Shown piece by piece: positions 2,183 through 12,245 of a DNA stretch of 36,412 bases (positions are counted from its first letter, which is position 1; each line of letters begins with the position of its first letter). The translations under genes and the position numbers were made by a program. Source of the DNA: Gammaproteobacteria bacterium (lineage in GTDB: Bacteria; Pseudomonadota; Gammaproteobacteria; Arenicellales; CAJQKF01); contig JAUIDF010000004.1 in NCBI GenBank assembly GCA_030429125.1, forward strand, positions 1 to 36,412. The letters run 5' to 3'. Below the pieces are notes generated by a model. That model did not search any database and was not told where the DNA came from. It worked only from the letters and a program-made list of their open reading frames with translations.

Positions 2183-3445
2183 ATGAGCGTGCTGCTGGGC
2201 GCCATCGCCGACGACTTCACCGGCGCGACCGACCTGTGCAACACACTGGTCAAGCAAGGCATGCGCGCGGTGCAGGTCATCGGCGTTCCGCGCGAGCCAC
2301 TCGACATCGGCAATGCCGAGGCCGTGGTCGTGGCATTGAAATCGCGCAGCAACCCACCGGGAGACGCCGTGTCGAGCTCCTTAGAGGCCTTGTCCTGGCT
2401 GCGGCGGATCGGCGCGAAGCAGTTCTTCTTCAAGTACTGTTCCACCTTCGACTCCACCGCGAGAGGCAATATCGGCCCGGTTGCCGACGCCCTGCTCGAC
2501 GCCCTCGACGCCGACTTCGCACCGGTGTGTCCCGCCTTCCCCGCCAATGGCCGCACGGTCTACCAGGGCCACCTTTTCGTCGGCGAGTCGCTGCTGTCGG
2601 AATCGGCCATGAAGGACCATCCGCTCACGCCCATGCGAGACTCGAACCTGGTTCGACTCATGAGCGCACAGTCGCGCCGGCGCGTCGGGCTCGTCGATCG
2701 CGCCACGGTCGCAGCGGGCGCCGACGCCGTACGGTCCGCGTTCCGCGCCCTGGCGCACAGCGGTCTCGGCTACGTGGTCGTGGACGCGATCTCGGACGAC
2801 GACCTGCTCACCATCGGCGAGGCCGCGGCAGACCAGGTGCTGGTGACCGGCGGTTCGGGCGTCGCCCTCGGCCTGCCAGGAAACTTTCGACGGCGCGGAC
2901 TGCTCGGCGCACCGGCGCCCGCAAGACTCCCCGCCGTGGAGGGACGCGAGGTCGTGCTCGCCGGCAGTTGCTCGGTGGCGACGCGCCGGCAACTCGACCA
3001 CGTTCGCGACACGTGGCCCTGCATCCGGCTCGACGCGCTGCGCCTGGCCGAGCACGACGTCGTCGACGAGGTTGTCGAGCGGGCGATCGAAGCGTGGAAT
3101 GAAAGCCCGGTGGTCGTCTACGCGTCGGCCGATCCCGACGAGGTATCGCGCGCGCAGGCAGCGCTCGGCGCGGAACGCGCCGGCGCCGTGGTCGAAGCGG
3201 CCCTCGCCGGTATCGCCCGCGCGCTGGTGGAGCGCGGCGCGCGCCGCCTGGTGGTCGCCGGCGGCGAAACATCCGGTGCCGTGGTCTCGGCGCTCGGCGT
3301 TCGCGGACTCGTCATCGGCGCGGAGATCGCGCCCGGGGTGCCCTGGACGCACACCCTCGGCGCGCCCGGCGTGGCACTGGCCCTGAAGTCGGGCAACTTC
3401 GGCAGCGAGGACTTCTTTGCGCGCGCCCTGGGCATGCTGTCATGA
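2183..3445 (+). CDS. otnK: 3-oxo-tetronate kinase (four-carbon acid sugar kinase family)
   Basis: LGAIADDFTGATDLCNTLVKQGMR N-terminus and C-terminal VVAGGETSGAVVSALG...GAEIAPGVPWT motif; 4-bp overlap with the downstream aldolase gene. Confidence 0.9.
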   Translation: MSVLLGAIADDFTGATDLCNTLVKQGMRAVQVIGVPREPLDIGNAEAVVVALKSRSNPPGDAVSSSLEALSWLRRIGAKQFFFKYCSTFDSTARGNIGPVADALLDALDADFAPVCPAFPANGRTVYQGHLFVGESLLSESAMKDHPLTPMRDSNLVRLMSAQSRRRVGLVDRATVAAGADAVRSAFRALAHSGLGYVVVDAISDDDLLTIGEAAADQVLVTGGSGVALGLPGNFRRRGLLGAPAPARLPAVEGREVVLAGSCSVATRRQLDHVRDTWPCIRLDALRLAEHDVVDEVVERAIEAWNESPVVVYASADPDEVSRAQAALGAERAGAVVEAALAGIARALVERGARRLVVAGGETSGAVVSALGVRGLVIGAEIAPGVPWTHTLGAPGVALALKSGNFGSEDFFARALGMLS

Positions 3446-4080
3446 GCGAATCCGGACTTCGCGAACGCATTGCGCGCGTGGCGCGCTCGATGTTCGAGCG
3501 GCGCCTGACCTTCGGCGCCAGCGGCAACATCAGCGTGCGCCTGGACGATGGCTGGCTGATGACGCCGACCGGCGCCTCCATGGGCGAGATCGACCCGGCG
3601 CGCATCTCGAAGCTCGATGCCAACGGCCAATGGATCGACGGCGACAAGCCGACCAAGGAATCGTTTCTGCACCTCGCCATGTACGGCGAGCGACCGAAGG
3701 CTGGCGCGGTGGTCCACCTGCATTCGACCCACTCGGTCGCCGTGAGCTGCCTGAAGGGCATCGATGCCGACGACGTACTACCGCCGATGACCGCCTACTA
3801 TGTCATGCGCGTCGGGCAACTGCCGCTGGTACCCTACTACGCGCCCGGCGACGCCGACCTCGCCATGGCCGTACGCACCACGGCGTCGCGCCATCACGCC
3901 ATGTTGCTGGCGAACCACGGTCCGGTGGTCGCCGGCCGTTCACTCGACACCGCCAGCGGCGCCATCGAGGAACTCGAGGAAACGGCGAAGCTGTACCTCC
4001 TGTTGAAAGATCGCGACTTCGTGCCGCTATCGACCGCCGAGGTCGCCGCACTTCGACGACAATTCCCGATCGACACCTGA
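3442..4080 (+). CDS. otnC: 3-oxo-tetronate 4-phosphate decarboxylase / class II aldolase family
   Basis: FGASGNISVRLDDGWLMTPTGASMG and VVHLHSTHSVAVS, LLANHGPVVAG motifs of the class II aldolase/adducin family; ATGA overlap with otnK. Confidence 0.88.
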   Translation: MSESGLRERIARVARSMFERRLTFGASGNISVRLDDGWLMTPTGASMGEIDPARISKLDANGQWIDGDKPTKESFLHLAMYGERPKAGAVVHLHSTHSVAVSCLKGIDADDVLPPMTAYYVMRVGQLPLVPYYAPGDADLAMAVRTTASRHHAMLLANHGPVVAGRSLDTASGAIEELEETAKLYLLLKDRDFVPLSTAEVAALRRQFPIDT

Positions 4081-7272: not shown

Positions 7273-7704
7273 CTAACGCACGTCGAAGGTGACGCTCTGG
7301 CGGCTGTCGTCCTCGAACTGAAGCTCGATGTCGAAACGGCTTCCCGCTTCGAGCGGGCCGGTCAGCCCGATGAGCATGACGTGCAATCCGCCGGGTTCGA
7401 ACGTAACCGTCTCTCCCGCCGGCAGCGGCACCGAGTCCATGCGACGCATTTTCATCATGCCGTCCTCCATGACATGGTTGTGCAACTCGACGTTCTCGGC
7501 GACGTCGGCGTGTGCGGCAACGAGGGCGTGCGGTGCGTCGTCGCCGTTGGTTATCTGCATGTAGGCGCCACTGACGGGCGCACCGGGGGCGACCGCGCGG
7601 GCGACCGCGAGCTCGACGGTGATGCTGTCGGCAACGCCGGCCGCGAATACGGGCGGGACAAAGGCAAGCACAATCGCGGCCGTCGCGACGGCGAAACGTT
7701 TCAT
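7273..7704 (-). CDS. Periplasmic copper chaperone PCuAC family
   Basis: Signal peptide MKRFAVATAAIVLAFVPPVFA; AAHADVAENVELHNHVMEDGMMKMRRMDSVPLPAGETVTFEPGGLHVMLIGL matches the H(M)X10MX21HXM-type copper-binding region. Confidence 0.88.
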   Translation of the reverse strand: MKRFAVATAAIVLAFVPPVFAAGVADSITVELAVARAVAPGAPVSGAYMQITNGDDAPHALVAAHADVAENVELHNHVMEDGMMKMRRMDSVPLPAGETVTFEPGGLHVMLIGLTGPLEAGSRFDIELQFEDDSRQSVTFDVR

Positions 7705-7878
7705 GGGAAGCTCCTCGATGGATGGCGGAAACCGGGTACCCGCGCGGCCGCGGACGCACCGGCGGCAAGTGTAAACAATCGCCGCCATCGCGGCGCACTC
7801 CTGTCGAATCGGTAACCCGGTTAGCGGTCCGGCCGGTTTGCGCAGCGCGCCGACGGCTGTCGCCGCCGGCGCGCCCGG

Positions 7879-8538
7879 TCAGGAAGCGAGCACCCGTCGT
7901 AGCGCTGCATCCGCGCCATCGAGGTCGAGATTCGAAGCGATGTGTTCGAGATGCTGCAACATGAGCGACCGGGCGGCCTCGGCATCACCGTCCGACAGGG
8001 CATCGACCAGGCGCGGATGCTCGCCGTAGGCGCAGAACAGCGGCGAGCGTCTCTCGAGACAGGCCACGGCCAGCGCCGAACGCGACATCAGGTTGGTGGC
8101 ATAGCCGAGCAGCAGTGCGTTGCCCGTGGCCTCGGCGAGGGACAAGTGGAATCGTGCCGACATTCTCAGGCCACGCGGACGATCGCCGGACGCCATCGCC
8201 GCCCGCTCGGCCGCGCAGGTCGCGCGCAACGACCTGACCTGCCGCGTGGTCAGCCGGCCGCAGACGAGATCCACGATCCCCAGCTCGACCACCCGGCGCG
8301 CCTGGAAAATGGCGCGGGCCGTATCGCCATCCACGCTGTTGACCGTGGCGCCGCGATTCTGGCGTATGTCGACGATGCCCTCGTCACACAGGCGCTGCAA
8401 GGTGCGACGCACGACGCTACGGCTGACGCCATACATCGACGCCAGCGTGGCCTCCGTCAGGCGCGTACCGGGCGCGATGGTCCCGCCGAGAATGGCGTCG
8501 AAGACCTGGTCGTAGAGCTGGCGGTGCAGGGTGGACAT
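7879..8538 (-). CDS. GntR-family (FCD-type) transcriptional regulator
   Basis: QVFDAILGGTIAPGTRLTEATLASMYGVSRSVVRRTLQRLCDEGIVDIRQNRGATV winged HTH; all-helical FCD-like C-terminus; divergent from puuD. Confidence 0.88.
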   Translation of the reverse strand: MSTLHRQLYDQVFDAILGGTIAPGTRLTEATLASMYGVSRSVVRRTLQRLCDEGIVDIRQNRGATVNSVDGDTARAIFQARRVVELGIVDLVCGRLTTRQVRSLRATCAAERAAMASGDRPRGLRMSARFHLSLAEATGNALLLGYATNLMSRSALAVACLERRSPLFCAYGEHPRLVDALSDGDAEAARSLMLQHLEHIASNLDLDGADAALRRVLAS

Positions 8539-8539
8539 G

Positions 8540-8573
8540 ATTGTATTTTAATTCCCCGGAAATAAAGTACAAT
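8540..8573. promoter_or_regulatory. 34-bp near-palindromic candidate operator / divergent promoter
   Basis: ATTGTATTTTAATTCCCCGGAAATAAAGTACAAT; 14 of 17 mirrored positions are complementary; lies between gntR and puuD start codons. Confidence 0.65.
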
Positions 8574-8606
8574 CCCGGATGACCTTCGCATCCGTCGCCG
8601 GAATTC

Positions 8607-9794
8607 ATGGAAAATCACGTCTACGAATGGCTCAACCTGACGTTGCGCTGGATTCACATGATCGTCGGCATCGCCTGGATCGGCGCCTCGTTCTACTTCA
8701 ACTGGCTGGAGAACCGGCTCGACCGGCTGAGCGAGCGCGACCCCGGCATTGCCGGACAACTCTGGGCCATTCACGGCGGCGGTTTCTATCACCTGCGCAA
8801 GTTCGAGGTCGCACCGACGGCGCTGCCCGAACACCTGCACTGGTTCAAGTGGGAAGCCTATACCACGTGGCTGTCGGGCATGGCGCTGCTGGTGGTGGTC
8901 TACTACCTGAATGCGCGCGCCTTCGTGGTCGACCCGGCCAAGGCCGAACTCGGTGAACTGGCCGCCGTCGGCATCGGGCTCGGCGCCATCGCGCTGTCCT
9001 GGATCGTGTACGACCTCGCCTGCAAGAGCCCGCTGAGACACCGTCCCGGCCTGCTCGGTGCAGCGATCTTCGGTTTCTTCACGCTGCTCGCGCTGGCGCT
9101 CGACCTGGTGTTCGGCAGCCGCGCCGCCTACATCCACGTCGGCGCGGCCATCGGTACGGTGATGGTGGCCAACGTTTTCTTCGTCATCATCCCGGGACAG
9201 CGCGAACTGGTCGACGCCCTGTCCGGTCGGCGAGATCCCGATCCCGAACCGGGCCACAACGCCCTGCTGCGTTCGCGGCACAACAACTACCTGACGCTGC
9301 CGGTGCTGTTCATCATGATCAGCAGCCACTTCCCCTCGACCTACGGCCACGCCCACGGCTGGGCTATCCTGGTGGCGCTGTCCGCCATCGGTGTCGCCGT
9401 GCGGCACTACTTCAACATTCGCCATCTCCAGCCGCGGGCGATATGGATTCTGCCGGCCGCATTCGTCGCCCTCGCCGCGGTGACGTGGTACACCGCGCCG
9501 GCCGCGATCGAGCGCGGGACCACGCTCATCGTGCCGGACGATGACATCGCCGTGATCCTCGACGATCGCTGCACGTCGTGTCACGCCGCCGCTCCGACCC
9601 AACCGGGTTTCGCGTCGCCACCGGCCGGCCTGTCGCTGGAAGACATGGAAACGGTCAGGGCCAACGCCGAGCGCATCTACATGAGCACCATCGCCACCAA
9701 TACCATGCCGCTCGGCAACCTGACCGGCATGACGGAAACCGAGCGCGCGGTGCTCGGCATGTGGCTCGAGCGAGAGATCGAGGCGGCGCGATGA
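8607..9794 (+). CDS. puuD: Membrane urate hydroxylase/oxidase with C-terminal cytochrome c domain
   Basis: MENHVYEWLNLTLRWIHMIVGIAWIGASFYFNWLENRL plus multiple TM segments and C-terminal CTSCH haem motif with METVRANAERIYMSTIATNTMPLGN. Confidence 0.92.
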   Translation: MENHVYEWLNLTLRWIHMIVGIAWIGASFYFNWLENRLDRLSERDPGIAGQLWAIHGGGFYHLRKFEVAPTALPEHLHWFKWEAYTTWLSGMALLVVVYYLNARAFVVDPAKAELGELAAVGIGLGAIALSWIVYDLACKSPLRHRPGLLGAAIFGFFTLLALALDLVFGSRAAYIHVGAAIGTVMVANVFFVIIPGQRELVDALSGRRDPDPEPGHNALLRSRHNNYLTLPVLFIMISSHFPSTYGHAHGWAILVALSAIGVAVRHYFNIRHLQPRAIWILPAAFVALAAVTWYTAPAAIERGTTLIVPDDDIAVILDDRCTSCHAAAPTQPGFASPPAGLSLEDMETVRANAERIYMSTIATNTMPLGNLTGMTETERAVLGMWLEREIEAAR

Positions 9795-10717
9795 GCAGCC
9801 CGCGCGAGTATCCGCGCGACATGGTCGGCTACGGCGCATCGCCGCCGGTGGTACGCTGGCCGGGCGACGCCCGCGTCGCGGTGCAGTTCGTGATCAACTA
9901 CGAGGAAGGCGGCGAGAACAACGTGCTTCACGGGGACGACGCCTCCGAGGCGTTCCTCTCCGAGATCATCGGCGCGCCGGCCTACCCCGGCATGCGTCAC
10001 CTGAACATGGAGTCGATCTACGAGTACGGTTCGCGGGCGGGATTCTGGCGGCTGCATCGCCTGTTCACCGAACGCGGCATCGCGGTGACCGTGTTCGGCG
10101 TCGCCATGGCGCTGGCGCGCAACCCGGCGGCCGTCGCCGCCATGGGCGAGGCGGGCTGGGAGATTGCCAGCCACGGCTGGCGCTGGATCGACTACCAGCA
10201 CGTCGACGAGGCCACCGAACGCGAGCACCTCGAACGCGCGATAGCCGTGCATGCCGAGGTCACCGGCGACGCGCCGTCGGGTTTTTACCTCGGCCGCTGC
10301 AGCCCCAACACCCACCGGCTCGTCGCCGAGCGCGGCGACTTCGCCTATCACGCCGACAGCTACGCCGACGACCTGCCCTACTGGGACACGCGGCACGGCC
10401 GCGCCCAGTTGATCGTGCCCTATACCCTCGATGCCAACGACATGCGTTTCGCCACCAACCAGGGATTCAACAGTGGCGCCCAGTTCTACGAGTACCTGAA
10501 GGATACCTTCGACGTGCTCCACGCCGAGGGTGCCGACGCGCCACGCATGATGTCGGTGGGCCTGCACTGCCGTCTCGCCGGCCGGCCCGGCCGGCTGGCG
10601 GCGCTGGCACGGTTCGTGGACTACGCGGCGTCGCGCGAGCGAACCTGGTTCGCCACGCGACTCGACATCGCCCGCCGATTCAGGGAGCAGTACCCGGCGC
10701 CTGTCGTCGTAGCCTGA
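9791..10717 (+). CDS. puuE: Allantoinase of the polysaccharide deacetylase type (PuuE)
   Basis: YPRDMVGYGASPPVVRWPGDARVAVQFVINYEEGGENNVLHGDDASEAFLSEI; ATGA overlap with puuD. Confidence 0.92.
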   Translation: MSSPREYPRDMVGYGASPPVVRWPGDARVAVQFVINYEEGGENNVLHGDDASEAFLSEIIGAPAYPGMRHLNMESIYEYGSRAGFWRLHRLFTERGIAVTVFGVAMALARNPAAVAAMGEAGWEIASHGWRWIDYQHVDEATEREHLERAIAVHAEVTGDAPSGFYLGRCSPNTHRLVAERGDFAYHADSYADDLPYWDTRHGRAQLIVPYTLDANDMRFATNQGFNSGAQFYEYLKDTFDVLHAEGADAPRMMSVGLHCRLAGRPGRLAALARFVDYAASRERTWFATRLDIARRFREQYPAPVVVA

Positions 10718-10767: not shown

Positions 10768-11730
10768 ATGAGTAACAACGACATCAACCTCGCATCGGCC
10801 CGTCTCGGCGCCGTCGCGGTATTCGCCACGGACGACTTCTTCGCCGACAAGTCGCGAATGCTCGACGATGCCGAACCGGTCTTCATCGAGGGCAAGTACG
10901 ACGCCAACGGCAAGTGGATGGATGGCTGGGAATCGCGCCGTCGACGCGGCCCGGGCCATGACTGGTGCGTCGTGAAGCTGGCGCGAACGGCGAACCTGTC
11001 GTCCATCGAGTTCGATACGCGGCACTTCACCGGCAATTTCGCCCCGGCCGCGTCGGTCGACGCCTGCCTGAGCGACGCCGACGATCCCGGCGAGGACGCT
11101 CCCTGGCAGAGCATCGTCGACATGATCACGCTGAACGGCAACGACCGGCGAGCGGTGGACGTGTCGATGCCGGGACCGTTCTCGCACGTGCGCCTCAACA
11201 TTCACCCCGACGGCGGCATGGCGCGGCTGCGCGTGCACGGTCGCCCGGTGATCGCGGACTCCGATGGCGTCATCGATCTCGCCGCCAGCCTCAACGGCGG
11301 CGTCGCGCTGGCCTGCAACGACTCGCACTTCGGTTCCATGCACAACCTGCTCGCGCCCGGCCGCGGCCGCGACATGGGCGACGGCTGGGAAACGAGACGG
11401 CGGCGCGAACCCGGTTTCGACTGGGTCATCGTCGAACTCGGGCGCACCGGCGTGGTGGAGCGCATCGAGATCGACACCGCGCACTTCAAGGGCAACTATC
11501 CCGACCGCTGCAGCGTGCAGGCGGCCCGCGTCGACGGACCCGACGCCGCCTCCATCGCCGCTCGCAGCCTGCACTGGGCCACGCTGCTGGACGAATGCAA
11601 GCTGCAGGCGGACCGGGTGCACGTCTTCGACACGGTTCGCGACATCGGCCCGGTGAACTGCGTGCGCCTGAACATCATGCCCGACGGCGGCATCAGCCGC
11701 CTGCGGGTCTTTGGTAGGGTCAGCCGATGA
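10768..11730 (+). CDS. alc: Allantoicase
   Basis: Two tandem repeats: ATDDFFADKSRMLDDAEPVFIEGKYDANGKWMDGWESRRRR... and NDSHFGSMHNLLAPGRGRDMGDGWETRRRREPGFDWVIVELG. Confidence 0.95.
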   Translation: MSNNDINLASARLGAVAVFATDDFFADKSRMLDDAEPVFIEGKYDANGKWMDGWESRRRRGPGHDWCVVKLARTANLSSIEFDTRHFTGNFAPAASVDACLSDADDPGEDAPWQSIVDMITLNGNDRRAVDVSMPGPFSHVRLNIHPDGGMARLRVHGRPVIADSDGVIDLAASLNGGVALACNDSHFGSMHNLLAPGRGRDMGDGWETRRRREPGFDWVIVELGRTGVVERIEIDTAHFKGNYPDRCSVQAARVDGPDAASIAARSLHWATLLDECKLQADRVHVFDTVRDIGPVNCVRLNIMPDGGISRLRVFGRVSR

Positions 11731-12245
11731 CAAGCCTGACCGCCGAGCGCCTGACCGCCGACGCCTTCCGACCCTTCGGCGAGGTCATCGACCTGCGCAC
11801 CGCGCGCAGCCTGTGGATCAACGACGGGCTCACCGAGCGGTTCCACGACCTCGCCACGGTGGACGTGGCCGGCGACCAGGCGCGCGTGCTGGTCAACGTG
11901 TTCCGCTCGCAGCCCATTGCCCTGCCGCACCGCGTCGAGCGCCTGGAACGTCACCCGCTCGGCAGCCAGGCCTTCGTGCCGACCGCGCGCGCGCGCATCC
12001 TGGTGCTGGTCGCCCTCGGCGACACGACGCCGGATCCGCGAAGCATTCGCCTGTTCGTCACCGACGGCGAGCAGGGCGTGAACTACGCGCGCAACGCCTG
12101 GCACCACTACCAGATGGTGCTCGACGAACCGGCTGACTTCATCGTCGTCGACCGCGGCGGAGCGGGGAACAACCTGGAGGAGGTCGACGTATCGGCGCTG
12201 TCGCTCACCATCGACGCGGGCCCGACCGGTTTCGCGACGGCCTAG
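11727..12245 (+). CDS. allA: Ureidoglycolate lyase/hydrolase
   Basis: LTADAFRPFGEVID, VERLERHPLGSQAFVPTARARILVLVALGD, WHHYQMVLDEPADFIVVDRGG; ATGA overlap with alc. Confidence 0.93.
   Translation: MTSLTAERLTADAFRPFGEVIDLRTARSLWINDGLTERFHDLATVDVAGDQARVLVNVFRSQPIALPHRVERLERHPLGSQAFVPTARARILVLVALGDTTPDPRSIRLFVTDGEQGVNYARNAWHHYQMVLDEPADFIVVDRGGAGNNLEEVDVSALSLTIDAGPTGFATA

Follow-up and report, generated by a model that had tools for sequence, protein, structure and literature searches.

GntR regulators of the FadR type act through a palindrome, NyGTM-N0-1-KACNy, whose half-sites nearly abut and whose spacing varies little (PMC4494728). UgmR (PA1520), a GntR protein of Pseudomonas aeruginosa, is a repressor of allantoin and glyoxylate genes whose action uric acid relieves (PMC12694930). 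Atu1419 of Agrobacterium fabrum, an FCD-GntR of the VanR group, recognises the palindrome ATGTATACAT and represses its own gene; as a tetramer it can hold two sites (PMC7797058). In NanR of E. coli, also an FCD-GntR, several dimers cooperate on repeated elements resembling half-sites (PMC8012715). A separate body of work concerns bidirectional bacterial promoters, in which the symmetry of the DNA lets RNA polymerase bind either way round (PMC10268837, PMC12825309). Our search of the literature found no paper that describes a GntR operator of the form TTGTATACAA at a urate locus.

The subject of this analysis is a short symmetric element lying between a gntR gene and a urate operon, within a stretch of 36,412 nucleotides (the whole of the DNA analysed, hereafter the window). 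Comparison with related loci gives good support to reading this element as a putative operator, unusual in the layout of its half-sites, for an FCD-type GntR repressor akin to UgmR.

The locus and its symmetric element

The gntR gene (7879–8538, minus strand) encodes a protein of 219 aa with an N-terminal GntR winged helix and a C-terminal FCD domain (Pfam GntR, 7.7e-16; FCD, 1.8e-22), the arrangement of the FadR type. It is divergent from an operon whose genes overlap or stand close together: puuD (8607–9794, plus strand, ATG at 8607), the first gene, encodes a membrane urate oxidase with a C-terminal CxxCH haem motif (Pfam Urate_ox_N, 8.1e-123); there follow on the same strand puuE, for allantoinase (9791–10717; TIGR03212, 7.9e-156), which overlaps the puuD stop codon, the allantoicase gene (10768–11730; TIGR02961, 2.1e-124) and, overlapping the stop codon of the latter, the gene for ureidoglycolate lyase (11727–12245; NF009932, 6e-56). 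The regulator itself is close to GntRs of purine and urate loci, and its homologues adjoin puuD, puuE, allantoicase and xanthine permease genes. From its position between gntR and the operon, the element is so situated that it could govern both the urate-to-glyoxylate pathway and its presumed regulator. Elsewhere in the window, a gene for a PCu(A)C copper chaperone (7273–7788, minus strand) lies directly downstream of gntR; upstream of the urate locus, genes for 3-oxo-tetronate kinase and 3-oxo-tetronate 4-phosphate decarboxylase (2183–4080; NCBIfam NF043035 and NF043034) make up a small cluster for the catabolism of acid sugars.

The element (8540–8573) is a 34-bp near-palindrome that accounts for half of the 68 bp separating gntR from puuD and stops 1 nt short of the ATG of gntR (8538, minus strand). 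The original prediction had described its sequence, its coordinates and its 14 complementary pairs among 17 mirrored positions, all of which proved exact on recount; the exceptions are 8546/8567, 8551/8562 and 8556/8557. Shuffling reached fourteen pairs neither in 200,000 trials on the 34-mer nor in 20,000 on the gntR–puuD intergenic region, and no other 34-mer in the window scores at least 14. The element is moreover an A+T-rich island, with 26% G+C against 67% for the window. It can be divided into a left arm, ATTGTATTTTAATT (8540–8553), six central bases, CCCCGG (8554–8559), and a right arm, AAATAAAGTACAAT (8560–8573). The left arm opens with the half-site ATTGTA (8540–8545) and the right arm closes with TACAAT (8568–8573); the cores TTGTA and TACAA are separated by 22 bp, the distance first reported.

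Two pairs of promoter-like hexamers are laid over these arms. On the plus strand, facing puuD, the −35-like TTGTAT (8541–8546) stands 16 bp from the −10-like TAAAGT (8563–8568), a pair that agrees with the sigma-70 consensus at 7/12 positions by hand count. On the minus strand, facing gntR, TTGTAC (8572–8567) stands 16 bp from TAAAAT (8550–8545), the complement of which lies in the left arm; here the hand count is 8/12. A consensus promoter scan reported no promoter at its threshold. Judged from hexamer positions alone, the divergent starts would lie 37 bp apart, that on the plus strand at about 8575. The gntR start is placed by its predicted −10 at about 8538, and, because the palindrome contains an in-frame TAA immediately before the ATG, no start codon earlier than ATG 8538 is possible; the gntR mRNA is accordingly predicted, from sequence, to be leaderless. 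In the window and in a congener the last base of TAAAAT precedes the A of the gntR ATG by 7 nt, an arrangement that is not found at the more distant locus L064.

Conservation of the arms and the 22-bp spacing

Evidence that the arms are under selection came from the congener, genome G024, whose GntR and PuuD are 76% and 81% identical to those of the window. Its gntR–puuD gap holds ATTGTATTTTAATT-N6-AAATAAAGTACAAT, with arm positions identical at 28/28, while the central bases are mostly changed (CAGGAA) and about half of the remaining gap is different. Fourfold-degenerate sites are 60% identical between the two genomes in puuD and 47% in gntR; drift at 60% would give 28 identities of 28 with P about 8e-7. 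The innermost symmetry of the window (CCCCGG) is lost in the congener, and since this part of the palindromy is not conserved the functional unit is better sought in the two 14-bp arms than in the full 34-bp palindrome.

The split pattern occurs once per genome in G000 and G024, solely between gntR and puuD. Of the puuD loci of the order, about 60 were examined, and the GntR neighbour and the element occur together only in the window and its congener; the other puuD loci fetched have neither this GntR adjoining nor the site, and the possibility that the site is a general puuD promoter motif was rejected on the grounds of this absence. Two more genomes of the order carry a weaker GntR homologue (32–33% identical) with compact ATTGTCAACAAT sites in the locus. 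As a separate observation, a conserved stretch, ATTGTAG-CGATTTTTCTGAAAA, recurs some 95 bp ahead of puuD in ten upstream regions belonging to family f12 and may be a different regulatory site.

The nature of the arms became apparent through comparison with GntR homologues drawn from the class and the phylum. Many of these adjoin puuD, puuE, allantoicase, ureidoglycolate lyase or xanthine/uracil permease genes, and many of those in purine loci have upstream a compact site, ATTGTATACAAT, TTGTRTACAA or TTGTNNACAA. Further compact palindromes upstream of homologues read ATTGTTAACAAT and ATTGTCAACAAT, and most of family f171 (eleven loci) has TTGTGTACAA. Each arm of the window carries, as its outer six bases, exactly half of the compact site. 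The resemblance of the half-sites to FCD-GntR sites of the form TTGTATACAA, originally claimed in general terms, holds within this very clade. The recognition residues S39, R40, R44 and G63 are invariant across the GntR alignment, the first three lying in the recognition helix, and by homology an unaltered half-site code is to be expected.

What sets the window apart is the spacing. ATTGTA and TACAAT are both present, but instead of nearly abutting, as described for FCD operators, they stand 22 bp apart, and the compact upstream TTGTRTACAA of the homologues is absent at the window gntR. Nor does an exact compact site occur elsewhere in G000 or G024. A true operator of the form ATTGTATACAAT at some other place was rejected, there being zero matches in the genome at 0 mismatches; the few matches with 1 mismatch adjoin genes that do not look purine-related. 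At three other gntR homologues, in loci spanning two different families, two compact operators (TTGTTGACAAT and ATTGTCAACAAT) lie upstream exactly 32 bp apart in 3/3 cases, an arrangement of paired operators that may be related to the split site.

TTGTA-N22-TACAA was found at only three GntRs – those of the window, the congener and L064 in genome G303 – and at 0/3 of these is there a compact site. The L064 GntR is 46% identical to that of the window; its gene and a xanthine/uracil permease gene diverge, and a gene of hydroxyisobutyrate/tartronate-semialdehyde reductase type also adjoins it. One L064 arm, TTGTATTTTAAT, shares 12 of 14 bases with the left arm of the window. Looked for in orthologous loci, the palindrome turned out to be kept as complete arms in the congener, and in L064 as half-sites at the same distance of 22 bp. 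In the GntR tree the three proteins with a split site group as a single clade (support 93/89; found in 91% of bootstrap trees), to which the 22-bp spacing is specific. Its sister group comprises five loci (L065, L066, L068, L072 and L075) with ATTGTATACAAT or ATTGTATACAAC; most have the compact site (ATTGTATACAAT upstream of gntR in L065, L066, L072 and L075), and in 3/5 (L065, L066 and L068) a permease gene again adjoins gntR.

A degenerate form of the split pattern, written after the G303 sequence was seen, gave about 20 weak matches over 369 genomes, at places in 19 of them, a count similar to that of a reversed-pattern control; the sole match beside such a GntR, other than the window, was that in G303. 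A look-alike in G427 was rejected, for it adjoins unrelated genes. Scored by a pattern built from the window only, L064 reaches 21/28, a score attained in 3/100 family-wide shuffles (a chance of about 3%) and in 0/1,000 shuffles of L064 itself. On these comparisons the G303 site is likely to be homologous to the window element; the split layout is represented by only two lineages, one genus and G303.

A proposed shared switch and its alternatives

We consider it probable that the element is the shared operator and promoter region of a gntR–puuD divergon, at which GntR, bound to both arms, would repress both sides. Two ATTGTA half-sites, normally back to back as ATTGTATACAAT in this GntR clade, here stand 22 bp apart; this being about two helical turns, their relative faces are roughly kept. 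Each half-site would cover the −35 of one promoter and, of the −10 facing it, the downstream end. GntR would occupy both arms, probably as one dimer per arm, joined as a pair or a tetramer: given that dimers of FCD-GntRs read nearly abutting half-sites (PMC4494728), a single dimer is unlikely to span the gap. Each dimer, or each half of a tetramer, would then recognise the strong half-site of one arm along with that arm's weak inner portion. Bound in this way, GntR would exclude RNA polymerase in both directions and so repress its own gene and the urate operon at once, until released by a purine-pathway metabolite. Urate is our best guess for this ligand, by analogy with UgmR, which is relieved by uric acid (PMC12694930).

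More tentatively, and with rather less than even confidence, we suggest that the compact operator of the clade has been pulled apart by exactly 22 bp, such that one repressor assembly reads two isolated half-sites straddling two antiparallel, fully overlapping promoters at which polymerase and repressor are mutually exclusive. If true, a single 34-bp switch would serve both directions. The same half-sites, read by nearly the same recognition helix across a 22-bp gap, would demonstrate that the layout of an operator can alter while the main DNA-reading residues stay as they are; the locus would also offer a minimal natural test of one repressor controlling two overlapping promoters, and provides a candidate operator and regulator for operons of the cytochrome-linked urate oxidase (PuuD).

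The mirror-image promoters of the original prediction are partly supported: they exist as hexamer pairs just as described, but they are weak and only the gntR-side pair (TTGTAC-16-TAAAAT) is kept in L064, where the position of the opposite −10 reads TGCTGT. It could be, though we think it rather unlikely, that the operator is real while only the gntR promoter is genuine: the other pair would be a by-product of symmetry and puuD would start elsewhere, for example from an outward TACAAT at 8568–8573. That G303 keeps both half-sites at 22 bp, yet only the gntR-direction hexamers, speaks for this alternative, as does the weakness of TAAAGT as a −10 (4/6, against 5/6 for TACAAT). The congener, however, keeps both hexamer pairs fully; there is no good −35 at 16–18 bp upstream of TACAAT, and a further puuD promoter would hardly fit into the 68-bp gap. 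The exactness of the promoter mirroring may be in part a by-product of operator symmetry.

The converse proposal, that overlapping antiparallel promoters simply mirror each other and GntR does not bind, we judge less probable again. Bacteria commonly have symmetric bidirectional promoters (PMC10268837, PMC12825309), and the conserved arm bases lie mostly inside −35 or −10 hexamers; eight conserved arm positions nonetheless fall outside all four. G303 retains the outer ACAA beside the gntR −10 while lacking an opposing promoter, and the retention of a half-site there argues that the outer half-sites were selected as an operator. Moreover, the arms match the half-sites of the clade's own compact operators, and published bidirectional starts are 7–25 bp apart, against the 37 bp predicted here. 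That the element acts as an RNA hairpin (a terminator or leader structure), or as the site of an unrelated factor, is most improbable: the plus strand as RNA does fold into a long hairpin (z = −2.9, 8540–8606), but there is neither a T-run nor a terminator call, the predicted starts exclude the element from both mRNAs, and the centre of the congener's stem is not complementary.

Parallels with described regulators

The reading of the element as a shared operator finds its nearest parallel in UgmR, a GntR-family repressor of urate and glyoxylate metabolism; the window GntR is of the same family and stands at a urate locus. Family f171 holds homologues 42–45% identical to the window GntR, among which UgmR may be. 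These homologues have a compact TTGTGTACAA or TTGTATACAA upstream and a different gene neighbourhood, whereas the site of the window is split.

For an assembly of two dimers, the Atu1419 tetramer, joined through its C-terminal helices, and the cooperating dimers of NanR would serve as precedents by analogy. Atu1419 is likewise an FCD regulator with the same GTA/TAC core in its palindrome, although its operators are compact 10-bp palindromes 109–190 bp apart, joined by looping, in contrast to half-sites split by 22 bp; none of the nine PDB sequence matches to the window GntR at 1e-6 is named Atu1419. NanR differs in reading three GGTATA direct repeats and in owing its cooperativity to a 32-residue N-terminal extension, which is absent from the window protein, where the GntR domain begins at residue 6. 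Bidirectional promoters, finally, share a −10 region, whereas in the window each putative −35 overlaps the opposing −10.
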